Part shown: one piece after another, positions 249 through 27,547 of the stretch
Numbering within the stretch: position 1 is the stretch's first letter
Layout: each line of letters starts with the position of its first letter
IMG/VR virus record: IMGVR_UViG_3300031857_000483
Span: 1-39,823 of that record
DNA length: 39,823 nucleotides
Reading direction: 5' to 3' (one strand)
DNA from: a virus
Translations under genes and position numbers: made by a program
Notes under the pieces: model-generated
The model's input: only the letters and a program-made list of their open reading frames with translations
Told to the model about the DNA's origin: nothing
Database searches by the model: none

Positions 249-392
249 GCACCCGATTCAGCGACTGCACCCGATTCAGCGACTGCACCCGATTCAGCGA
301 CTGCACCCGATTCAGCGACTGCACCCGATTCAGCGACTGCACCCGATTCAGCGACTGCACCCGATTCAGCGACTGCACCCGATTCAGCGACT
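249..392. repeat. 18-bp tandem repeat, 8 perfect units
   Basis: The unit GCACCCGATTCAGCGACT is present in eight head-to-tail copies with no mismatch that I can see. As 18 is a multiple of 3, some frames stay open and would give a six-residue repeat (HPIQRL on the plus strand), but no ribosome binding site or protein context supports coding. After the last unit the sequence continues into a short 9-bp repeat (GGAACCAAT) at about 402-420. It may be a binding-site array or a structural DNA element. Confidence 0.93.
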
Positions 393-499
393 GCACCCCA
401 TTGGAACCAATGGAACCAATGGCATCCCATGTTCTCAGATTGCTAAAAATTATCGAAAAGGACATACTATACATTATCGGACATAGGTTTCTTCGTTTT

Positions 500-720
500 T
501 TGGCGCTTTGGTGCTTTCGGGTTCTGGTGGTTCCATCGGTTCTGATTGGCTTCCTTTGGATGCTTTCGGACCGCTCGCCTCCCCTTTGTCCCCCCTGGAG
601 CCCATCGGCGCCCTTGGGGCTTGTGGCCTTTGGCGCCTTTGGGTCCGATTGGTTCCCCTTGGTTCCCTTTGTTCCCTTTGGGTCCGATTGGTTCCCTTGG
701 TTCCCCTTGGTTCCATCGAG
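500..720. repeat. Low-complexity GGTTCC/TTCCCTTTGG-rich tract
   Basis: This stretch is built from imperfect copies of GGTTCC, CCCTTTGG and GGTCCGATTGGTTCCC; the last occurs near 639-655 and 680-696. Read on the minus strand, it encodes broken Gly-X-Y-like runs with GPKG, GNKG and GTKG in more than one frame. I see no continuous reading frame with a ribosome binding site, so I call it a degenerate repeat, possibly a relic of a collagen-like tail-fibre gene. Confidence 0.6.
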
Positions 721-777
721 TGTCAAGAAAAATTGACAACCTGCCGCACTGCCGCCCAACGTCAAGAAAAGTTGACA
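721..777. promoter_or_regulatory. Pair of TGTCAA-N6-TTGACA palindromes
   Basis: Two inverted repeats, 721-738 (TGTCAA-GAAAAA-TTGACA) and 760-777 (the same with one changed outer base), lie 39 bp apart, nearly four helical turns. A matching half site, GTTGACAAGCG, recurs at 1594-1604 in the candidate early promoter. Such spaced dyads are typical of repressor operators; no DNA-binding assay or cognate regulator is known. Confidence 0.55.
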
Positions 778-930
778 AGCGGTTCCATCGGTGCATCGCG
801 ATGGATCGATAGGTGACCGCTCGTTAACATTCGCAAGCCTCGGTGCCAGCGATCGGGCACCCCTCTGCCCCGTTTTTCCCCAGGAATGTATTTTCAGCCA
901 GAAAACAAGGGTTCAACATAGCGAAAAAAA

Positions 931-1278
931 TTTCTACATAGCGAACAAGCGAGACAACGGCTTGCATGGTAAGCGTTTATACATCAAGAGTGTTCGTGAA
1001 TGTAGAAAATGCAAATATGTTGGTAAAAGTCACCCGGTCGTTCCTTCTGCGCCCCACGCTCTGTCACGATCCGCGCGGTGAAAGGCACACCCCAAGCCCC
1101 AAGGCGTACCCTTAGTGAAAGCAGGTCCGGGTTCTTATTATATTACATATTTACAATATAACATTTCCATATATACAAGGTACCGTTTCGCATAGACTTA
1201 TGTCGATGCTGTTCGTGAATGTAGAACATGCAAAAGTACAACAAAAGAATCATTCTGCCGACTTTTCTACATTGAAAC
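931..1278. repeat. Iteron-like repeats TGTTCG-N-ATGTAGAAA
   Basis: An 18-bp word, TGTTCGTGAATGTAGAAA, occurs at 991-1008 and again (17 bp) at 1210-1226. Inverted versions lie at 931-947 (TTTCTACATAGCGAACA) and, as a half copy, at 1263-1278. A second small repeat, ACATAGCGAA, occurs twice 20 bp apart at 916 and 936. The region between is AT-rich (about 1130-1200). The arrangement resembles replication origin iterons or a cluster of operator sites upstream of the early genes. Confidence 0.5.
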
Positions 1279-9691: not shown

Positions 9692-9900
9692 AAATAACAC
9701 AAAGAGATTGCCAAAGGGTGCGAAAGGTCCGCCTTGCCAACGGAGCCACCACTCGGCTGGCCCTGTGGGATCCAAGAAACCGAGCGTCCCCTGTTATGAC
9801 CTCAGCGGGCTTTCGATATTCTGCTGAAGGCGTACTAGAGGGATTCAGCGAGTTTCACGCCACGGCTATTGTGGGATTCGTTGACGAGGAGTCTTTGTGA
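9688..9900 (+). CDS. Hypothetical protein, 70 aa
   Basis: The start overlaps the previous stop (ATGA) and its own stop overlaps the GTG of the helicase half (GTGA), so three genes are coupled. The product is a small basic beta-rich protein (RVRKVRLANGATTRLALW). It shows no helicase motif, so it is not the missing N-terminal part of the next gene. Function unknown. Confidence 0.6.
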   Translation: MKITQRDCQRVRKVRLANGATTRLALWDPRNRASPVMTSAGFRYSAEGVLEGFSEFHATAIVGFVDEESL

Positions 9901-10826
9901 GAGTCTGGCTACTCACAGGCACCCCGGCCCCCAATGGCCGCCCGATAGAGTTGGAACCCCTGCTAGACACGGTGGGCCACCCTGCCACACGCGATCTTGC
10001 GGCCTACCGTGAGCGCCACTGCAAACGCTGGAACCCAACAAAGATGACGCCGGATTTATTGGGGGCAAACAATCTGGGAGAGTTGCGGAAATCTCTCGAA
10101 ACCGGGGGCCATTGGCTAAGGCGAACGGGCAAGGATGTTCCCGGTGAACTCCCTGAATCCATTCTTGAAATTGTTTCACTGGCAAACGTGGCGGCACCTT
10201 TGATTCCAGACGAAACCGGGCTTGGTCCCGATGCTGACCAGGACGGTGCCAGAGCGGCACTTTTGCAAGCCGCTGCGGACCTTGGGCTGAGCGGATATGA
10301 TCCCGCCCGCTCTGACCAAATCCCAGGGCAAGATCGTCTGTCAGCGTACTGCCGAGATTGCGGACTGGCCAAGGTTCCAGCCGTTGCTTCTTGGTATCGT
10401 GACTTCCTTTCTGACCACGGCGGAATGCCTCTTGTTCTTTTAGCCAAACACCGTACCGTCATTGAAACGCTAGCCAAAGAAATTGACGCGCCGTTTGTCC
10501 ACGGTGGGCACAGTGCAGGAAAACGCCAGAAAATCATTGATGAATGGTTGAAAAATGACAAGAAACCCGTCATCGTTGCATCCATTGGGGCCTGCGGCAC
10601 AGGGCTTGATGGACTCCAGCACAAAGCGGTGGCCGGCGCATTTGTCGAACTCGTTTGGAACCCTTCAGAGATCATTCAGGGCACTGGGCGAATCGTTCGC
10701 AAAGGATCAGTCAGTACGTCCCCGGTTCTCATGTTTGAACTCGATGCTGGGTCAACTTTAGAGGACCGCTTGAGAAAAACGCTTCGCCGGAAAACATCTA
10801 ACACCATCAAAATGATAGGAGAATGA
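9897..10826 (+). CDS. SNF2-family helicase, C-terminal half (motifs III-VI)
   Basis: The protein starts directly at helicase motif III, LLTGTPAPNGRP (5-16), and continues with the RR(T)GKDV segment (75-81), motif IV LVLLAKHR (179-186), motif V IVASIGACGTGLDGLQ (226-241) and motif VI QGTGRIVRKG (261-270). The Walker A and DEAH motifs needed for ATP hydrolysis are absent. They occur in another gene 3.3 kb downstream (14096), whose SNF2-like part ends just after motif II. Together the two pieces add up to about 450-460 aa, the usual length of phage SNF2 helicases. The GTG start is supported by the GTGA overlap. The halves may assemble into one ATPase, or both may be relics. Confidence 0.85.
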   Translation: MRVWLLTGTPAPNGRPIELEPLLDTVGHPATRDLAAYRERHCKRWNPTKMTPDLLGANNLGELRKSLETGGHWLRRTGKDVPGELPESILEIVSLANVAAPLIPDETGLGPDADQDGARAALLQAAADLGLSGYDPARSDQIPGQDRLSAYCRDCGLAKVPAVASWYRDFLSDHGGMPLVLLAKHRTVIETLAKEIDAPFVHGGHSAGKRQKIIDEWLKNDKKPVIVASIGACGTGLDGLQHKAVAGAFVELVWNPSEIIQGTGRIVRKGSVSTSPVLMFELDAGSTLEDRLRKTLRRKTSNTIKMIGE

Positions 10827-12679: not shown

Positions 12680-12853
12680 ATGCCCCTAAATCCAAACGAA
12701 GCCCCAGAAGGCTTTATCGCCGTTAAAGCTCCCGACGACAAGTGCTCTGTCGATTGCGCGTTGCTGGGGTGCTCCGCATGCGCCCAGGCAGTGTGTGAAA
12801 AGGAAAAGCGAAAGGATAAAACCTCTGTCTATTTTGTCAAAAAAAGAAAGTAA
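12680..12853 (+). CDS. Cys-rich small protein, 57 aa
   Basis: AAAGGA (12665-12670) lies 9 nt before the ATG. The protein begins MPLNPNEAPEGFIAVKAP and then has five cysteines (C22, C26, C31, C34, C39) before a basic tail ending VYFVKKRK. This layout, with EGF(I/V)AV followed by closely spaced Cys and a final basic strand, is one I know from small phage proteins of unknown function, presumably zinc-binding. It ends 10 nt before the next gene, and its stop region forms that gene's AAGGAG site. Confidence 0.6.
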   Translation: MPLNPNEAPEGFIAVKAPDDKCSVDCALLGCSACAQAVCEKEKRKDKTSVYFVKKRK

Positions 12854-12863
12854 GGAGAAACCA

Positions 12864-13352
12864 GTGCTGAAACCTTTGCCCGAACCCGTAGAAAAACAAG
12901 CCGACCCCCTCGGCAAAGATCCCCATTCGGCAGGTGCAAAACTTGATGCCAACAAGGAGCCATGGGATCTCCTCATGGACTTCCACCCAGATTGCCTTAT
13001 ATCGCCGCACTACGACATTGAGTTTGACCATCACGCGATATGGCTCCTGATTTCCAGGTTGAAAAACTCGCGCCCCCTGGACATCGTCATGGTGTCAATG
13101 TTCCGAGAGCACCAAGTTTTTGCGGTGGCAAAGTATGGCGCCAAAAAGTACACAAAGGGCGGATGGCTAACTGTTCCCGATGGAATCAAACGGTACAGGG
13201 CCGCAGCCGTGCGCCACCTGTTGCGCTTGGATGAAGGGGAAGACACGGATCCTGAGTCTGACTTGCCGCACATTTACCATGCCGCGTGGAACGTTTGGGC
13301 GGTTTATACTTTGGAACAAAATCAAAAAGGAACGCACCATGTCACACCGTGA
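12864..13352 (+). CDS. DUF5664 dATP/dGTP pyrophosphohydrolase-like protein (MazZ family)
   Basis: The GTG start at 12864 has AAGGAG just upstream. From GAKLDANKEPW (24-34) on, the protein follows DUF5664: KYGAKKY (90-96), W101, a Y..A..RHL block (R117, H118), GEDTDPESDLPH (125-136) and HAAWN (139-143). The conserved Glu/Asp residues are expected to bind metal and cleave dNTPs to dNMP and pyrophosphate; in cyanophage S-2L the related MazZ acts on dGTP/dATP in the aminoadenine pathway. Many DUF5664 proteins occur in phages with ordinary DNA, and no PurZ or DatZ is in this window, so a nucleotide-pool role is all that is supported. It overlaps the next gene by 14 nt. Confidence 0.7.
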   Translation: MLKPLPEPVEKQADPLGKDPHSAGAKLDANKEPWDLLMDFHPDCLISPHYDIEFDHHAIWLLISRLKNSRPLDIVMVSMFREHQVFAVAKYGAKKYTKGGWLTVPDGIKRYRAAAVRHLLRLDEGEDTDPESDLPHIYHAAWNVWAVYTLEQNQKGTHHVTP

Positions 13353-13905: not shown

Positions 13906-14099
13906 CCACCGGATCAGAAGAAAATCGAATCGCCCGCGTTGAACTCGTGGACGAAATGCGTGCCACTGCCCGCCGGATGCGAGAGTGCGCCGAGCGGATG
14001 AAAGCGACTCCAGGGCCAGGGGTTTTCGCCATTGACGCGCTGGCCTTGCGGCGCAGTGCTGAAGACCTGGACGACGCGGCAGATCGCATTCCGACATGA
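13902..14099 (+). CDS. Hypothetical helical protein, 65 aa
   Basis: Overlaps its neighbours on both sides by ATGA. The protein is almost entirely helical and charged (RVELVDEMRATARRMRECAE, then LRRSAEDLDDAADRI) with a central Pro/Gly turn, as in a helical hairpin. No function is recognised. It immediately precedes the helicase N-half. Confidence 0.6.
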   Translation: MTTGSEENRIARVELVDEMRATARRMRECAERMKATPGPGVFAIDALALRRSAEDLDDAADRIPT

Positions 14100-15307
14100 C
14101 ACTTCTCCGCCCCGTCAAACCCTACCAAGAGGAAGGCGCTCGATTCCTTGCTGCTTGGGACCGTGGAATCCTGGCAGACGCGCCCGGCCTTGGAAAAACG
14201 GTGCAAACGCTTCTTGCGTTAGACCTGGCGGGAATCGGACCTTTATCAAATGTTCTCGTTGTCGCCCCTTTGTCCGTTTTACCCTGTTGGCAAAAAGAGG
14301 CGATAAAATGGACAGAATGGCGACGTTTTACAATAGTCAGACGCAACGATTCCGTAACGAAAACGCCAGGACACACCTTGGTTCCATGGACAGACCTGGT
14401 TGTTATGAAAGACCGATTGATGCAGATAAAATGGGACGTTGTTATCCTCGACGAAGCCCACCGCCTGAAGCAAATGGCCAGCGATGGGCAACCCGGCTGG
14501 GGCGAGGTTGTGCGGGACTTAGTAGGCCCCCCAACTTTGTCCCTTGACACGTCAGAAACCCCTGGCATAGTGTTCGGAGAAGCGAACAAAGAAGCCGTTG
14601 CAAACCTTTCTAACCCACCACGTGCCAACGTTGCACAAAAGGAGCCCACCGTGTCTCAGAATCAAGAAGAACTTTTCCAACTCGGCAAGATCGTGAGCGA
14701 ACTTGGCGGCGCACTCAATCGCGTTTCCGCTTTGCTCTCTCGGATTGCTACTGCTAGTGCAGCAGAGGAAACTGCAAAAACCACAGTGAAGATCGACCTG
14801 CAAGCCCCCTGCACGACGATTGGTGTGGGTGCAATCGCCGCCGTTTCCTCAGCGGGGGAAAAGCCCGCTGAGAAAGTCCAGCCGCAAGAGCAGGCCATCG
14901 CCACAATGCTGAACCCGTTAAACAAAGACCCAGTCAATGCAGCCGCACTTGAGGCGCTTTCCGATCCTGATAAACTGCGGCAATACCTCAAAACCCGCCC
15001 TTCGTTGGCCCCACTGCCCCCGGCGGAAGCTGCCGCGTCACCGTGCGCCAATGGGAGTGTCGCGGCCAAAGAAGAGCCCAAGGTCGCAGGCGGTGAAGTC
15101 ACCCCCCTCACCTTCGCCGAGTTCTCCGCTTTCCTCCCCAAGTTCCTTGGCGATCCCGTTGGCGACAAAGCCAACTACGAAGCCCGTCGTGCCAGCGTGT
15201 ACCGCGAATGCTCCGCTGCCGCTGGGGTCACCGAAAAGATTCTGCCCGCGAAGTTGACCGATGCCCAGCGCGGATTGGTCGCAGCTCGCCTGGGGTTTGC
15301 CAAATGA
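14096..15307 (+). CDS. SNF2-family helicase N-terminal half (motifs I-II) fused to an unrelated domain, 403 aa
   Basis: Residues 1-140 are the SNF2 ATPase start: Q-motif-like LRPVKPYQEEGARFL, Walker A DAPGLGKT (28-35), motif Ia VVAPLSVLPCW (55-65), and DEAH (119-122) in VVILDEAHRLKQ. Similarity ends at about residue 150; motif III and all later motifs are absent here but open the gene at 9897. From about 14560 the DNA looks like a gene leader, and AAAGGAG (14637-14643) precedes a GTG at 14651 (codon 186). Residues 186-403 are Ala-rich and probably an independent protein. So this frame joins a truncated helicase to the next gene without a stop. The ATG overlaps the previous stop; its own stop overlaps the nuclease start. 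Confidence 0.85.
   Translation: MTLLRPVKPYQEEGARFLAAWDRGILADAPGLGKTVQTLLALDLAGIGPLSNVLVVAPLSVLPCWQKEAIKWTEWRRFTIVRRNDSVTKTPGHTLVPWTDLVVMKDRLMQIKWDVVILDEAHRLKQMASDGQPGWGEVVRDLVGPPTLSLDTSETPGIVFGEANKEAVANLSNPPRANVAQKEPTVSQNQEELFQLGKIVSELGGALNRVSALLSRIATASAAEETAKTTVKIDLQAPCTTIGVGAIAAVSSAGEKPAEKVQPQEQAIATMLNPLNKDPVNAAALEALSDPDKLRQYLKTRPSLAPLPPAEAAASPCANGSVAAKEEPKVAGGEVTPLTFAEFSAFLPKFLGDPVGDKANYEARRASVYRECSAAAGVTEKILPAKLTDAQRGLVAARLGFAK
14651..15307 (+). CDS. Internal-start protein within the helicase-half frame, 218 aa (alternative product)
   Basis: A GTG with an ideal ribosome site (AAAGGAG, 7 nt spacing) lies in frame inside the gene starting at 14096. The product begins with a helical segment (QLGKIVSELGGALNRVSALL), has a long Ala/Pro-rich, likely disordered middle, and ends in a small helical domain (TFAEFSAFLPKFLGD to LTDAQRGLVAARLGF). 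I recognise no family. I infer that this was a separate gene that the truncated helicase now reads into; it may still be made alone from the GTG. Confidence 0.5.
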   Translation: MSQNQEELFQLGKIVSELGGALNRVSALLSRIATASAAEETAKTTVKIDLQAPCTTIGVGAIAAVSSAGEKPAEKVQPQEQAIATMLNPLNKDPVNAAALEALSDPDKLRQYLKTRPSLAPLPPAEAAASPCANGSVAAKEEPKVAGGEVTPLTFAEFSAFLPKFLGDPVGDKANYEARRASVYRECSAAAGVTEKILPAKLTDAQRGLVAARLGFAK

Positions 15308-16395
15308 ACCTTGACGCCCCCACAAAACATTGGCGCTTTGGCGGCTCGACTGCGTCAATGTGGCTGAACTGTGATGGCTGGTACGCCACCACCAAAGAGT
15401 CGATGAAGGTCGAGTCTGCGGAGATGAAGCGCGGCACAGAGTTTCACCGCATCTGCCACCAGTTCGCCCTCGGCACTTTCACCGGAGAAATGCCTGCTGA
15501 ATGCGCTCCCCATGCAACCGCTTGGGCAAAACTCGTCGGCCCCCACTGGCAGATCGAAGAAGAATGCGAACTGATGAACGGCGTTGCCGGGACGACACTC
15601 GATGCCGTTTGGTACGACGAGTTGACAGACACTCTCCACGTTGCCGATTTGAAAACGGGGGAAATGCTTGTTCACGCTTACGACAACGAACAACTTCTCT
15701 TTGGCGCGGTGTCCTGGTGCGTTGCCAAAAAGATGCGGCCCGCGAACTACCACCTGCACATTGTCCAAGGCGAAGACGATGCAGACGTTGATCCAGACGG
15801 TTCCCATCGCACCCACCGTTCCTGGTGTGTAACGTTGGAAGAATTGGCCGAGTTTGAAAAGAGGGTGTACGCGGCCATCAATCGCAATCACAAGGCGTGC
15901 GAATGGGAAGTGACTCCCTCTGACAAGTGCGGATTCTGTGCTGGACGTGTCACTTGCAAAGCTCACCTGGGAATGATGCAATATGTTACCGCTGGGGCAG
16001 AGCGCGGAATCACTGTCGTCGATTTGCCAGATCCCACAGACGTTGTCAAAATCTTGTCCCCTGAGCAAATGGCCCAGATTCTCAAGTGTGCTCCCTACGT
16101 CAAAAAGATGATTGCCAATGTTGAAAAGTTGGCGCTTTCACTCGGTGGAGTCCCAGGATATGAAGTGGGCACGACGAAACCCTATCCTAAATGGCGGCTC
16201 TCTGATGCGGACACTCTGGACTCGCTGAAAGCCCTTGGTATCGAAAACCCATCTGTCCCTCTCAGCCCAGCGAAAGCACGCGATGCCCTGGCCAAAACCT
16301 ACGGCAAAGTGAAAGCTGCGGCAGCCATTGCCCGCCTGACCGAAACCCCTGAAGGTGAACCCAAATTGGTTCCCTGTGGCAAAAAGGAGGAATAG
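15304..16395 (+). CDS. DUF2800 RecB/Cas4-like PD-(D/E)XK nuclease
   Basis: The 363-aa protein has the nuclease order: GGSTASMWLNC (13-23), RGTEFH (43-48), D100 in GTTLDAVWYD, D115 and K117 in VADLKTG, and QLLFGAVSW (130-138). C23 together with C209, C212 and C218 (KCGFCAGRVTC) gives the four-cysteine pattern of Fe-S-containing nucleases such as Cas4 and AddB. DUF2800 genes stand beside DUF2815 and PolA genes in many phages, as here, which suggests a role in end processing during replication or recombination. The ATGA overlap fixes the start. AAAGGAGG at the 3' end serves the next gene. Confidence 0.85.
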   Translation: MNLDAPTKHWRFGGSTASMWLNCDGWYATTKESMKVESAEMKRGTEFHRICHQFALGTFTGEMPAECAPHATAWAKLVGPHWQIEEECELMNGVAGTTLDAVWYDELTDTLHVADLKTGEMLVHAYDNEQLLFGAVSWCVAKKMRPANYHLHIVQGEDDADVDPDGSHRTHRSWCVTLEELAEFEKRVYAAINRNHKACEWEVTPSDKCGFCAGRVTCKAHLGMMQYVTAGAERGITVVDLPDPTDVVKILSPEQMAQILKCAPYVKKMIANVEKLALSLGGVPGYEVGTTKPYPKWRLSDADTLDSLKALGIENPSVPLSPAKARDALAKTYGKVKAAAAIARLTETPEGEPKLVPCGKKEE

Positions 16396-17690: not shown

Positions 17691-18938
17691 ATGCCCCCTC
17701 GCAAATCTCTGGCGATCACTCCGCAAGAATTGAATCCGCCGGGCACTGAAAACGTCCCTGCGGTCCATGCCGCTGAGAAAATCACACAAGCCATCATCGC
17801 CGCCGGTATCGACCCAGTGTCAACCGTTGGCATGCAAGAAGTCAAAGTGATCCAAGAGGTGTTCGGCGGACACTTGGCCGCGCTGGAATCGCTGATCCCG
17901 GCTTGCCAAGCGGTCGCAGAAGACGACCATGTCACGGCGAAGAAACTCGCCCTCCAGATCATGCGAATCCGTACCGCAGCGGACAAGGACCGCCTGGCCC
18001 TCAACAAAGACTCCCGCAGCCGCATCGCTGCCGTCGATGGCACCAATAAAGTCCTCTTGCACGTTCTGACTCCAATCGAAGACCATTTGAACAAGATCGT
18101 TGACGCATACGCAGAGAAAGAACGGGAAGCCATTCGTGCTCGTGGCGAGGCCCGGGCAGCCCACATTCGCCTTGTGGGAAACCCCGAAGGCTACGAATTG
18201 GAAACGATGTCTGAGGAACTGTTTCAGCGGCTGCTCGCGCGTTTGACCAAAGAACACGAAGACGCCAAAGAGGCCGCAGCGAAACAGGCGGAAGCCAATC
18301 GCATTGCCGCCGAAGAGAAAGCCAAAATAGCGGAAGAGAAAGCCAAGGTTGACGCGGAAGCCCAGCGGTTGCGCCAGAAAGTCCTGGATAACGAAAGGAA
18401 AGAGCGCGAGGCCCAGGCTGCGCACGAAGCCAAAGAGGCCGCAGCGAAACAGGCGGAAGCCAATCGCCTTGCTGCGGAAGAAAAGCGCATTGCTCGCCTC
18501 CGTGCAGGGCTGAAGCAGTTGTCTGAATTGAGCGCCACGCCTCTTGCGGCTTTGTGGGAGTTGCAAGTCAAACACATTGAAGGCCGCCTTGCCGAAGCCG
18601 AGGCGACCGATTGGGCCGAGTTTGACATGGAAGCCGAAGGGTACATCGCCATCACCCGCGAATGGTTGGCCGTTGCTGCCCCGGCGGCCAAAGCGTTAGA
18701 AGAAGCCAAAGCGAAAGCAGCGGCAGAAGCGGAAGCCGAGAGAAAAGCGGAACTCGCGCCTGACGTTGAAAAACTCGAATCAATGGCGCTAGAGTTTTAC
18801 AATGTTCTCCTGGGATTTGAAGCCCGTGCGGAAACGCTCAAGCATCTTGCCGCACGCGAAACCGTCGGAGTGTTCTGCTCCAAAGCGGCGTATCTGAAGC
18901 AAGAGTTTGAGAACAACATCACCTGCCTATCGATCTGA
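17691..18938 (+). CDS. Long coiled-coil protein, 415 aa
   Basis: AAAGGATCC precedes the ATG in the usual spacing. After about 175 residues of helical sequence, residues 185-275 are Ala/Glu/Lys-rich coiled coil with an internal repeat: EAAAKQAEANR(I/L)AAEEK occurs twice, 55 residues apart (39-bp DNA repeat at 18264-18302 and 18429-18467). A second coiled-coil part follows at about 345-365. The C-terminal ELAPDVEKLESMALEFYNV segment is duplicated downstream at 19204-19268. Such proteins near phage ssDNA-binding and recombination genes are common, but the function is unknown. The next gene follows after 11 nt. Confidence 0.75.
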   Translation: MPPRKSLAITPQELNPPGTENVPAVHAAEKITQAIIAAGIDPVSTVGMQEVKVIQEVFGGHLAALESLIPACQAVAEDDHVTAKKLALQIMRIRTAADKDRLALNKDSRSRIAAVDGTNKVLLHVLTPIEDHLNKIVDAYAEKEREAIRARGEARAAHIRLVGNPEGYELETMSEELFQRLLARLTKEHEDAKEAAAKQAEANRIAAEEKAKIAEEKAKVDAEAQRLRQKVLDNERKEREAQAAHEAKEAAAKQAEANRLAAEEKRIARLRAGLKQLSELSATPLAALWELQVKHIEGRLAEAEATDWAEFDMEAEGYIAITREWLAVAAPAAKALEEAKAKAAAEAEAERKAELAPDVEKLESMALEFYNVLLGFEARAETLKHLAARETVGVFCSKAAYLKQEFENNITCLSI

Positions 18939-18949
18939 AGGAGAGACCA

Positions 18950-19186
18950 GTGGCCACCAACAAACTGAATGCCCCGCCCGCCACAAGGACCGACACGCAG
19001 AAAATGATGGCGATGCACTTGCTTGTAGCGGAAGCGGTTTCCACAGTGTGGACAGATGATGTCCACCACCTGCAATCTGACGAAGCTAAAGTCCTGGCAC
19101 GGGAAATGTGCGAATCAGTATTTACTCGTATCGCCCAGTTCGCAGCGGCAATCGACCGATTCGACACAGGTGCCAAATGCCCGTAA
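18950..19186 (+). CDS. Hypothetical helical protein, 78 aa
   Basis: The GTG start at 18950 has AAGGAGA just upstream. The protein is helical (TQKMMAMHLLVAEAVSTVWT, then VLAREMCESVFTRIAQF) with one HH pair. No family is recognised. Its end overlaps a 39-codon frame carrying a duplicated piece of the coiled-coil gene. Confidence 0.6.
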   Translation: MATNKLNAPPATRTDTQKMMAMHLLVAEAVSTVWTDDVHHLQSDEAKVLAREMCESVFTRIAQFAAAIDRFDTGAKCP

Positions 19187-19296
19187 AGAAACGAAAGAAC
19201 CGAGCGGAACTCGCGCCAGACATTGAAAAACTCGAATCAATGGCGCTAGAGTTTTACAATGTTCTCCTTTGTAATCGGTCGCATACCGAAGTTTAA
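19177..19296 (+). pseudogene. 39-codon frame carrying a duplicated 3' fragment of the coiled-coil gene
   Basis: Bases 19204-19268 repeat 18747-18811 with two mismatches in 65 bp, in the same reading frame (ELAPDIEKLESMALEFYNVL). The frame opens at an ATG overlapping the preceding gene and closes 4 bp before the first attC-like site. Both changes are visible as one silent and one conservative substitution, so the duplication is recent. It may be a mis-insertion product at the left edge of the cassette array, or a short real peptide. Confidence 0.6.
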
Positions 19297-19299
19297 TCC

Positions 19300-19353
19300 G
19301 CCCGACGCACAAGATGGCCGGGCCGAAGGCTCCGGTTCATTGACTTGTTAGGT
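19300..19353 (+). other. attC-like recombination site 1 (array 1, short type, 54 bp)
   Basis: R'' box GCCCGAC (19300-19306; one base off RYYYAAC) and R' box GTTAGGT (19347-19353; fits GTTRRRY) frame an imperfect palindrome. Inner arms CCGG (19318-19321) and CCGG (19332-19335) close around GCCGAAGGCT, and CAAG..ATG pairs with CAT..CTTG with unpaired bases, as in integron L boxes. It shares about three quarters of its bases with the site at 26697. Confidence 0.7.
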
Positions 19354-19385: not shown

Positions 19386-19763
19386 ATGGACGACATCGAC
19401 ACGATCATAGCTACAAAGATAATGGGTTGGGTTGTTCACCCACGCGATACAGGAAACTGGGTGAAATCATGCGACGACCAGATTGGTTATAAGGTCATGG
19501 GGTCAACCTGTTTTCCTTTTAAGTTTTCGCCGTCACAAAACATCGACGATGCCTGGCAAGTAATCGAGCACATATCAACTCCTGGGGCTGGAACGCGTAT
19601 CGATGGTTTGCCCTGGTCAACTCGCTTTGCGTATTCATTTGAAAAAAGCAATCTTTGGGCATTTGATGCAAAAGGTGCCGCGCTAGAAATTTCAATGATG
19701 GCCTTAAGAGCGGCAGGGATTGAATTGGAATCTAACGCAAAAGATCAGACGGCGGGCGCGTAG
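19386..19763 (+). CDS. Cassette gene 1A: phage ABA-sandwich-like protein, 125 aa
   Basis: The protein begins MDDIDTIIATKIMGW and has FSPSQNIDDAWQVIEHI (about 48-64), an aromatic middle, and AFDAKGAALEISMMALRAAG, which matches the layout of the small Phage_ABA_S (BC1872-like) family: IATKVMGW, a PS.NI.DAW.V motif, and a final A..I..AAL.A.G helix. Its molecular function is unknown. It is flanked by attC-like sites, and the last eight codons lie inside the second one, a classic cassette feature. Upstream AAGGGT is a weak ribosome site. The gene is less GC-rich than its neighbours. Confidence 0.7.
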   Translation: MDDIDTIIATKIMGWVVHPRDTGNWVKSCDDQIGYKVMGSTCFPFKFSPSQNIDDAWQVIEHISTPGAGTRIDGLPWSTRFAYSFEKSNLWAFDAKGAALEISMMALRAAGIELESNAKDQTAGA

Positions 19764-19825
19764 CCCGTCCGTGAAGCATAGAAATCACCCAGTCGCCCGC
19801 TCGTGCTGAATCGTACTTGTTGGGC
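19730..19825 (+). other. attC-like recombination site 2 (array 1, long type, 96 bp)
   Basis: R'' ATCTAAC (19730-19736) and R' GTTGGGC (19819-19825) both satisfy the integron consensus. Long arms pair inside: GATCAGACGGCGGGC near 19743-19757 against GCCCGCTCGTGCTGAATC near 19795-19812, with unpaired bases. From 19736 to the end it is nearly identical to the site at 27032-27120. It overlaps the 3' end of cassette gene 1A. Confidence 0.8.
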
Positions 19826-19861: not shown

Positions 19862-20155
19862 ATGCTGAAGGGGTTTGATACATTCCGTGAGATAGGATCT
19901 TTTGAGGTTCGGCAATTAACCCAGGAAGAACCATCTTGTTTTAATGGCATTGTTCGCGTGGAAAAGTACCGCGTAAAGATCGAGAAGGTTGAAGAGCATG
20001 TTTGTGTCATTCGCGCACGACTGCAAAAACTGTGGGATGAATGCAAAAATCATCATCACCAAGCCACATTGATTCGTGCTGGACTGAAATACGGTATCGA
20101 CTTGCGTAATCCGACCAACAGTGGGATAGGTGGCGTACCGGAAAACCCGAAATAG
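19862..20155 (+). CDS. Cassette gene 1B: hypothetical protein, 97 aa
   Basis: AAGGAGA precedes the ATG by 8 nt, directly after attC-like site 2. The protein is mixed alpha/beta in the first half (REIGSFEVRQLTQEEPSCF) and has a basic helix with a HHH cluster (LWDECKNHHHQATLIRAGL) that could bind metal. No family is known to me. No attC follows it; instead the TAG stop lies in the closing hairpin of the array. Base composition is AT-richer than flanking phage genes, as expected for an acquired cassette. Confidence 0.65.
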   Translation: MLKGFDTFREIGSFEVRQLTQEEPSCFNGIVRVEKYRVKIEKVEEHVCVIRARLQKLWDECKNHHHQATLIRAGLKYGIDLRNPTNSGIGGVPENPK

Positions 20156-20180
20156 ATGGCAGACCATCTATCCCGACAGA
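20149..20180. repeat. Closing hairpin of array 1
   Basis: GAA then ATAGATGG (20152-20159), loop CAGA, CCATCTAT (20164-20171), CC and GACAGAGAAA. The same element, with a different loop, closes array 2 at 27505-27547. An 8-bp AT-rich stem without T-run is not a typical terminator. Confidence 0.7.
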
Positions 20181-26219: not shown

Positions 26220-26682
26220 GTGGTGGCCAGGGTTTCCCGTCCCGCGCCTTGCCGTTGTTCCCGTTGACCAAGAGTTTTGCCCCGTCGGCCCCGTCGTTGT
26301 CGTCAAGGCGGACACAGTCACCAAAGTTCACATTAAGGACATCTATGTCTATTCCCCCGAAGCGTACCAAAGAAGAAATTACCGACGTGGAAAACTCAGA
26401 AATACTGCGGACATTGATGATAAAGGCGCAGGCGGTTTCTGGGAAATCGTACCGAACGCTCCAAAAAGAATCCGGCGTCAGTTTAGCGACATTGTCGCAG
26501 ATGCTAGGGGGACGCCTCGTTTCTGGGCACACGGAGCTTCGACAGACTACAGTCGTTATCCGGTTGTGCAAAGCGTTAGGGATCCGCCTCCAAGCACGCT
26601 CGCAGCCTTTCCTAATGCTGAAGTCATTGCCGTCCCCCCTGAAGGTGAAGAAGACCTCGAAGCGATTTACGAATCCTGGTAA
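26047..26682 (+). CDS. Possible overlapping gene, 211 aa
   Basis: An ATG at 26047 (alternative 26041) has AAAAAGG about 8 nt upstream, inside the preceding gene in another frame. The frame is the only open coding option for 26220-26344 and gives protein-like sequence there: TEWWPGFPVPRLAVVPVDQE, then GPVVVVKADTVTKVHIKDIY. Its 3' half overlaps the HTH gene in yet another frame, so one of the two is likely non-coding there. It may instead be a frameshifted continuation of the gene at 25656. Low certainty. Confidence 0.35.
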   Translation: MPKKRNLPPGLSPLSPKALRQGVTLAQRQQAGLWCHLRPGALVIKRNASRPRAHLVTEWWPGFPVPRLAVVPVDQEFCPVGPVVVVKADTVTKVHIKDIYVYSPEAYQRRNYRRGKLRNTADIDDKGAGGFWEIVPNAPKRIRRQFSDIVADARGTPRFWAHGASTDYSRYPVVQSVRDPPPSTLAAFPNAEVIAVPPEGEEDLEAIYESW

Positions 26683-26692
26683 TGTCGAATGA
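26345..26692 (+). CDS. HTH (XRE-like) DNA-binding protein, 115 aa, cassette-adjacent
   Basis: AAGGAC lies about 6 nt before the ATG. Residues about 33-75 fit an XRE helix-turn-helix: GKSYRTLQKESGVSLATLSQ, then MLGGR and VVIRLCKALGI. The C-terminal 35 residues are basic. It may be an antitoxin-like or repressor protein. Its stop lies 4 bp before attC-like site 3, as expected if it is itself the first cassette of array 2. An overlapping frame is open across most of it. Confidence 0.6.
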   Translation: MSIPPKRTKEEITDVENSEILRTLMIKAQAVSGKSYRTLQKESGVSLATLSQMLGGRLVSGHTELRQTTVVIRLCKALGIRLQARSQPFLMLKSLPSPLKVKKTSKRFTNPGNVE

Positions 26693-26696
26693 CCCT

Positions 26697-26750
26697 GCCC
26701 AACGTCCAAGATGACCGGGCCGAAGGATCCGGTTTAGCGAATTGTTGGGC
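26697..26750 (+). other. attC-like recombination site 3 (array 2, short type, 54 bp)
   Basis: R'' GCCCAAC (26697-26703) and R' GTTGGGC (26744-26750) are perfect inverted copies and fit RYYYAAC/GTTRRRY. The inner stem ACCGG-GCCGAAGGA-TCCGGT gives the imperfect palindrome expected of attC. It has the same length and internal layout as site 1. Confidence 0.8.
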
Positions 26751-26788
26751 GTGATTTTATTAACCACGTTTCTTTGAAAGGAAACACC

Positions 26789-27022
26789 GTGAACAACAAC
26801 AAATTAGAAAACGCACTAATCCGTGCTGGAGCAAAAATCAAAAACTCAGGAGTAAAGCGTGCGGCAATACTTGAAGGTCGTGCTACTATAATATGGGAGT
26901 GTAATTGTGGGTACGCGCAAAACGTTATTGGTCCCCATGTTTCTTTTACCCATAAAACTATTAAATCCGCCGTTCTGGCGTACAAACAAGCGCCGTTTTT
27001 GTCAATTCGTCGGGTAGTTTGA
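26789..27022 (+). CDS. Cassette gene 2A: hypothetical protein, 77 aa
   Basis: The GTG start at 26789 has AAAGGA 6 nt upstream. The protein begins with a polar helix (NNNKLENALIRAGAKIKNSG), has a central beta part with CNCGYAQ, and ends in a helix and SIRRVV. It shows no known motif. It lies between the short and long attC-like sites of array 2, its stop 3 bp before the long site, and is markedly AT-richer than the phage genes. It shares no visible similarity with the cassette gene in the same slot of array 1. Confidence 0.65.
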   Translation: MNNNKLENALIRAGAKIKNSGVKRAAILEGRATIIWECNCGYAQNVIGPHVSFTHKTIKSAVLAYKQAPFLSIRRVV

Positions 27023-27025
27023 TCC

Positions 27026-27120
27026 GCCCAACGCAAAAGATCAGACGGCGGGCGCGTTGCCCGTCAGTCAAGCATAGAAAACACCAAGTCGCCCGCTCGT
27101 GCTGAATCGTCTTGTTGGGC
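27026..27120 (+). other. attC-like recombination site 4 (array 2, long type, 95 bp)
   Basis: R'' GCCCAAC (27026-27032) and R' GTTGGGC (27114-27120) are perfect inverted copies. Inner arms GATCAGACGGCGGGC and GCCCGCTCGTGCTGAATC pair with unpaired bases between; a nested stem GACGGCGGGC/GCCCGTC is also possible. It is nearly identical to site 2 apart from a few substitutions and one indel. Confidence 0.85.
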
Positions 27121-27145
27121 GATAAAACAGCAAAGGAAAATGAAT

Positions 27146-27499
27146 ATGCACGGCCCACATGAGTCAATCGAAAACAAACTAGACACTTATCCATGTGTTT
27201 GGGTAATTTTATCTAAGCCGCCAAAACGCGCTGGAGTAGCTGCTGAATTATTTTCCTACGGTCTTCCTGGTCAACCATTCTCTGGTGATTTATTGAGTCG
27301 CGGTTGCGGAATTGGTTTTGCAAGTATTGACGCCGCCAGAGAGCATCTTTCGCAAAGCATTGCCCGCGATAAAGGTGCTGAATACACAAAATGGACCTTT
27401 CGTATTATTCCTGTGTATTTGCCGTATTTGCAGCCCAACAGTCTTGTTAGGCGGCCAGCCATGCTAACCGGGTTAGACGGACAGCCGCATAACCAGTAA
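27146..27499 (+). CDS. Cassette gene 2B: hypothetical protein, 117 aa
   Basis: The ATG at 27146 is 8 nt after AAAGGA; an ATG at 27140 is too close to it. The protein is mixed alpha/beta (TYPCVWVILSKPPKRAGVAA, then GFASIDAAREHLSQSIARD) and looks folded up to about residue 97 (RIIPVYLPYLQP). The last 20 codons run through two tiny palindromes that resemble a collapsed attC, so the native stop may have been lost. No family is recognised. Confidence 0.65.
   Translation: MHGPHESIENKLDTYPCVWVILSKPPKRAGVAAELFSYGLPGQPFSGDLLSRGCGIGFASIDAAREHLSQSIARDKGAEYTKWTFRIIPVYLPYLQPNSLVRRPAMLTGLDGQPHNQ
27433..27452 (+). other. Collapsed attC-like palindrome (array 2)
   Basis: GCCCAAC (27433-27439) and GTTAGGC (27446-27452) match R'' and R' but are separated by only 6 nt (AGTCTT). 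A second small palindrome, CTAAC-CGG-GTTAG, follows at 27473-27485. A functional attC needs L boxes and a spacer, so this is probably a deletion remnant. It sits inside cassette gene 2B. Confidence 0.5.
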
Positions 27500-27504
27500 A
27501 ACAA

Positions 27505-27547
27505 GAAATAGATGATTCACCATCTATCCCATTTTCACCCGACAGGA
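27505..27547. repeat. Closing hairpin of array 2
   Basis: GAA, ATAGATG (27508-27514), loop ATTCAC, CATCTAT (27521-27527), CCC, then GACAGGAAA after a short extra segment (27531-27540). The stem and both flanks match the element ending array 1; only the loop and one insertion differ. Confidence 0.7.

Follow-up and report, generated by a model that had tools for sequence, protein, structure and literature searches.

Two loci in the sequence of an uncultivated phage carry integron attC sites with small genes between them. We conclude that both loci are probably integrase-less integron cassette arrays (CALINs), in which turnover by the integron integrase (IntI) of a host replaces the genes and leaves the sites; we give this reading a probability of roughly 0.8. 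The sequence analysed, called here the window, is the whole 39,823-nucleotide linear virus record IMGVR_UViG_3300031857_000483, which encodes a family A DNA polymerase, a D5-type primase, an SNF2-type helicase, and a PDDEXK/DUF2800 exonuclease. A preliminary description of the window had recognized a framework shared by the two arrays; that framework was found again, but the sites had not been named as integron attC, and the inversion of the genes relative to the sites had gone unremarked.

The window was compared with related phage records and with bacterial genomes. A 54,938-base viral contig (IMGVR_UViG_3300042691_027774) was 100% identical to the window over the compared stretches, the longest of which was 22.5 kb; that it carries the window's cassette genes is expected for the same phage. 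Only one informative relative was present in the searched collections: IMGVR_UViG_3300008266_000964 (L005), a diverged phage whose DNA polymerase is 74% identical to that of the window. Four further phage contigs with sites of this attC family were found with a relaxed sequence pattern, giving five phage lineages in all. None of these four is a close relative: of the three compared by searches with their large proteins, two had terminases of different families, and the window's polymerase was not found in the fourth. Sites were scored with a covariance model (R1) trained on eight bacterial attC sites only and on no phage sites. The features of the two loci are as follows.

19177–19296, plus strand: 39-codon open reading frame, stopping three bases before the first attC of array 1
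19300–19353, minus strand: attC of the short type, array 1 (R1, 32.4 bits, E = 2.8e-6)
19386–19763, plus strand: cassette gene 1A, with a Phage_ABA_S domain (PF18066, 4e-9; phrog_8017, 9e-11), inverted relative to attC
19730–19825, minus strand: attC of the long type, array 1 (R1, 20.8 bits, E = 7.8e-3)
19862–20155, plus strand: cassette gene 1B, 97 aa, of unknown function, with an AAGGAG Shine-Dalgarno sequence and then ATG, inverted relative to attC
20113–20119, minus strand: degenerate box GACCAAC closing array 1, matching the L005 anchor in position
20153–20174, plus strand: array-end hairpin of array 1, the same as that ending array 2; folds
26345–26692, plus strand: phage HTH gene directly 5' of array 2, shorter than its homologue L005:15459–16076
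26697–26750, minus strand: attC of the short type, array 2 (bacterial-only model R1, 36.4 bits, E = 1.8e-7)
26789–27022, plus strand: cassette gene 2A, 77 aa, of unknown function, inverted relative to attC
27026–27120, minus strand: attC of the long type, array 2 (R1, 28.5 bits, E = 4e-5; fold z = −3.3)
27140–27499, plus strand: cassette gene 2B, 119 aa, inverted relative to attC, with its last ~20 residues encoded by the anchor
27433–27452, minus strand: two-box core site GCCTAAC-AAGACT-GTTGGGC at the end of array 2, suggestive of attI
27433–27499, no strand assigned: conserved array-end anchor, 91–92% identical to L005:5837–5903
27509–27530, plus strand: array-end hairpin of array 2, TAGATG-N5-CCATCTATCCC; folds

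The decisive test of site identity was the R1 search. The model matched all four window sites, each on the minus strand, at the E values listed above, and it also matched the sites of other phages with scores of up to 71 bits. The long sites scored weakly (20.8–28.5 bits); for the one at 27026–27120 the minus strand was also called by an independent scan for extrahelical bases. By a simple count of box pairs with an inner stem, the window was only weakly above chance (3 pairs against a shuffle mean of 0.63, with 2 of 100 shuffles reaching 3). The R'' box RYYYAAC and the R' box GTTRRRY were matched exactly in three of the four sites, the exception being 19300–19353 with GCCCGAC, and one stem pair is broken in the short site at 26697. 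In an alignment of 17 short sites from phages and bacteria, 93% of cells paired, and the covariation score was above those of all 500 shuffles (0/500). The model matches, the alignment, and the covariation met the criteria for attC, namely an imperfect stem, extrahelical bases in one arm, an unpaired spacer, and a variable loop. We conclude that the window sites are integron attC with their canonical orientation on the minus strand; recombination by IntI has not been shown.

The definition of a CALIN, at least two close attC sites with no integrase nearby, was met by two sites at each locus and by five in L005. The criterion for a complete integron, the presence of intI, was not met in the phage records tested. 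The tyrosine recombinase model PF00589 had no match in G000 to G003, which include the window, the near-identical contig, and L005, and the integron integrase model TIGR02249 had none in six phage records (the two related contigs and the four other phages). The window is a linear fragment and the phage records may be incomplete; another part of the phage genome could encode an integrase. Searches with the sites themselves gave no match to the strict short-site pattern in 84,980 bacterial genomes, no blastn match to the long site in annotated phages or plasmids, and no Rfam match in the window. The relaxed pattern matched Planctomycetota, Chloroflexi, a cyanobacterium, Nitrospiraceae, several proteobacterial or related genomes, and the four viral contigs.

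The sites of array 2 lie exactly where the preliminary description had placed them (26697–26750 and 27026–27120) and have perfect GCCCAAC/GTTGGGC boxes. As it had also stated, the long site is nearly identical to that of array 1 (94% against 19734–19814), the short site resembles its counterpart (81% against 19300–19352), and genes 2A and 2B are unlike the genes of array 1, with no blastp match to 1A or 1B. Its right limit for the array, 27547, was loose; the actual end consists of the attC-type box pair at 27433–27452 and the hairpin at 27509–27530. The TAGATG-N5-CCATCTATCCC hairpin occurs in the window only at the two array ends (27509–27530 and 20153–20174; 0.08 expected by chance). Because of these site identities and the common end hairpin, both arrays have one framework, made up of a short site, a long site, and an end hairpin. 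Because the end anchor and hairpin are the same, locus 2 probably received its array as a copy of that at locus 1, and other genes were gained afterwards.

The cassettes are AT-rich (36–46% GC, against 55% for the phage). Gene 2A has an AAGGA Shine-Dalgarno sequence and a GTG start within 40 nt past the box, its TGA stop lies three bases before the next box, and its product had no match in Pfam or PHROG. The boxes of array 1 are imperfect (GCCCGAC/GTTAGGT and ATCTAAC/GTTGGGC), and the degenerate box at 20113–20119 reads AATCCGACCAACAGT in the window and AATCCGCCCAACAGT in L005. A separate observation concerns the 39-codon frame in front of the first attC of array 1: it contains a 66-bp copy, 97% identical, of part of a neighbouring phage gene (19203–19268 versus 18746–18811) and is possibly a cassette in formation.

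Comparison with L005 addressed the proposal that contents are exchanged while sites are kept. Locus 1 of L005 lies between the homologue of gene 17691–18938 and the DNA polymerase gene and contains five attC sites, with genes entirely different from those of the window; locus 2 of L005 has no array and no attC site. The L005 HTH gene (15459–16076) runs to 205 residues and has a DUF7695-like C-terminal part, which is missing in the window where array 2 begins, the window homologue (26345–26692) stopping at the attC. Residues 14–96 of gene 2B are 53% identical to L005:14403–14717, a free-standing gene outside any array and upstream of the L005 HTH gene. This similarity stops at residue 96, just before the window box GCCCAAC, and residues 90–119 match L005:5811–5900. 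At the nucleotide level, window locus 2 becomes homologous to L005 locus 1 precisely at box 27433 and stays so for 67 bp (91% identity), and the upstream cassette bodies are unrelated. Two unrelated last genes share their final ~20 residues because the array-end anchor is conserved. Proteins 1A and 2B had no relatives among annotated phages.

Because locus 1 of L005 has different genes and gene 2B stands free in L005, cassette turnover between conserved sites is supported, as judged from sequence comparison; no recombination event was observed. The same genes fixed at both loci in relatives would have refuted the preliminary description, and they were found only in the near-identical contig of the same phage; the diverged L005 differs. 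Turnover between relatives supports one part of the proposed exchange, but no cassette was seen to have passed from one locus to the other within a genome, recombination itself was not shown, and the term "cassette reservoir" remains an inference.

The end of array 2 may correspond to an attI site. Its two inverted boxes, read from 27452 to 27433, are six bases apart, and we take the pair to resemble the attI1 core. It also resembles the two attI junctions of a bacterial integron (G007, below), GCCCAACAGCTTATTGG and GCCCAACAGTTTATTG on the other strand. In an alignment scan of the window it was among the best attI matches but was not uniquely best, and for that reason its attI identity stays a suggestion and its role as attI an inference. 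If this core is counted, the elements of array 2 and of the L005 array follow one another as attI, cassette, attC, cassette, attC; array 1 has only a degenerate box at the corresponding position.

The bacterial comparison was provided by G007 (Planctomycetota bacterium LBMAG bin5, BJHQ01000008), which has a complete integron, with an IntI match of 352 bits adjoining about 35 attC sites. Its sites belong to the same attC family as those of the window and include short and long variants, and its attI R-box junction, GCCCAACAG, is similar to the window's array-end box pair. Unlike the window arrays, it has an IntI and about 35 cassettes, and its genes are oriented with attC, except that the attI-proximal cassettes look inverted. 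Inverted start signals occurred after only 2 of 34 sites, the two nearest attI. For the attI-proximal interval the gene was inverted by ORF length too; the second interval was unclear. The position next to attI is the newest in an integron. The inverted signals at the G007 attI end (L067:8463–9143) carry strong Shine-Dalgarno sequences and possibly mark recent arrivals from phages. The inverted G007 cassette had no relatives in annotated phages, and when the cassette proteins of the phages and G007 were cross-compared, only translated attC sequence matched. Significant matches to the attC model were found in 19 of 198 Planctomycetota genomes, and a Planctomycetota host for the phage is inferred from the sites.

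The orientation of the cassette genes differed between phages and bacteria. In the five phage lineages, genes were opposite to attC in 14 intervals, in the same direction in 1, and unclear in 5, whereas in bacterial arrays of the same attC family 47 intervals were in the same direction, 2 opposite, and 4 unclear (Fisher p = 4e-11; intervals within one phage are not independent). Start signals gave independent agreement: of 25 phage sites, 17 had a Shine-Dalgarno sequence and start codon past the right box pointing in the inverted direction, and 2 had them in the canonical one. The criterion for a canonical cassette, a gene oriented with its attC, was not met in the phages. In another phage, with seven attC sites, a DNA methyltransferase gene forms an inverted cassette (L022:2219–2926), in agreement with a report of methyltransferases on phage cassettes.

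These features suggest a mechanism. A single strand of each attC would form a hairpin that the integron integrase cuts, and cassettes would leave as circles and enter at attC or attI. Because the phage records have no integrase, the enzyme is inferred to come from the infected bacterium, most likely one that has a Planctomycetota-type integron; host IntI would act on the phage arrays during infection, while part of the phage DNA is single-stranded. On the minus strand, array 2 is in integron order, with an attI-like end followed by cassettes each closed by attC. Because the genes run against this order, their transcription would start at the phage's own promoters and would include the neighbouring replication genes; inserted behind a bacterial integron promoter, the inverted genes would therefore be silent. 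These consequences for expression are inferred. Transcription itself could expose the recombinogenic strand as single-stranded DNA, because in these phages that strand is the coding strand; this is also an inference.

The sites could instead be relics that came in with host DNA on one occasion, have become inert, and persist as intergenic hairpins or terminators; the gene differences would then arise from ordinary homologous or illegitimate recombination at repeated hairpins. The missing integrase in the phage records, the drifted boxes of array 1 (GCCCGAC, GTTAGGT), and the second hairpin at each array end are compatible with relics, and repeats alone are able to recruit homologous exchange. 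Inert hairpins do not account well for a stem that covaries across phages and bacteria with its extrahelical bases kept, or for homology that breaks exactly at the box at one array end. Sites in the window and L005 were 75–92% identical, and the best-matching pairs (85–92%) were more conserved than the neighbouring genes (~71% for the DNA polymerase gene). The two end boxes of an integron cassette derive from one circle and should match each other. The cassette's own two ends fitted better than the two boxes of a site in 10 of the 13 informative phage intervals, the other 3 going the other way, and in 6/6 intervals of the bacterium; in attC 19730–19825, for example, the left box ATCTAAC fits GTTAGGT, at the cassette's other end, better than its own right box. 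Such half-site matching fits circular cassettes, and we consider relics improbable. It is far harder to credit that another single-strand hairpin system, such as IS200/IS605-type ends or phage-specific repeats, merely resembles attC. The sites are palindromic and the best ones fold on either strand, as such a system would allow; against this, no transposase or recombinase was recognized among the proteins searched, a model built from bacterial sites alone gave significant phage matches, the genome richest in sites has a clear IntI adjoining its array, and the R boxes, extrahelical bases, and spacing agree with attC. IS200/IS605-type ends were considered and rejected.

Within the CALIN reading, the common inversion has more than one possible origin. 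Several unrelated phages may keep a phage-adapted class of inverted cassettes that moves between phages and host integrons by host IntI, the attI-proximal G007 cassettes being arrivals; we offer this, including its direction of traffic, only as a tentative inference. Equally doubtful is an origin by chance, in which attC by coincidence ran against transcription in each phage and only cassettes reading the phage's way were kept. Selection for expression in phage operons would retain sense genes, and just five independent phage lineages were sampled. All five lineages are nevertheless reversed (5/5, about 1 in 32 if random, a figure that rests on five phages), and the attI-proximal cassettes of the Planctomycetota integron are arranged likewise.

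Integrase-free arrays in phages have been described before, for example in Tetrasphaera phage TJE1 (Qi et al. 2023, PMC9892861). In that study 5 of 6 tested sites recombined with IntI1; recombination with IntI1 was shown for two attC sites from TJE1, an isolated phage (PMC9892861). Those arrays resemble the present ones in combining attC with small cassettes in a phage without an integrase. In TJE1, unlike the window, an attC-like site (1016–1075) lies with gene orf2 (318–1046, plus strand) in the canonical arrangement; all lineages here are inverted, and the window has two arrays of one framework. TJE1 had no match to the R1 attC model, and a box-pair scan for attC found none in it; one was detected when extrahelical bases were permitted in the scan. 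Class 1 and Vibrio integrons share with these phages the R boxes, the extrahelical bases, and the rule that extrahelical bases set the attC strand that recombines; there the captured gene thereby reads with the array, and in these phages it reads against it (Bouvier et al. 2009, PMC2727003).

The consistent inversion, the two-locus framework, the turnover in related phages, and the link to Planctomycetota attC appear to be new; only open-licence literature was covered, and an earlier description is not excluded. The current view is that attC strand choice orients integron cassettes in the direction that lets a bacterium express the genes it has captured. If phages do invert their cassettes consistently, this would amount to a second cassette type that follows rules of its own, and it would give phage genes a way into bacterial integrons and out again. 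The related phages are a case showing cassette turnover directly; together with the opposite orientation of the genes, this suggests a phage-specific pool of exchangeable genes, and phage arrays make the open question of cassette origin testable.

Other features of the window were noted. The SNF2-type helicase is apparently split (9897–10826 and 14096–15307), with its C-terminal half about 3 kb upstream of its N-terminal half. Positions 12795–13352 encode a dATP/dGTP diphosphohydrolase N-terminal domain, a domain also seen in phages that have modified purines; a Z-genome (modified-purine) interpretation was dropped when PurZ was not found in the three phage records searched. The left contig end (1–430) has arrays of 8-bp and 18-bp tandem repeats that could be an assembly artefact. 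A leader motif recurs before many window genes (at 2502, 3071, 3534, 5041, 5288, 8805, 9438, and other positions); it reads AAACCGGGG...CCCCAAAGGA, with variants, and apparently combines a hairpin with a ribosome site.
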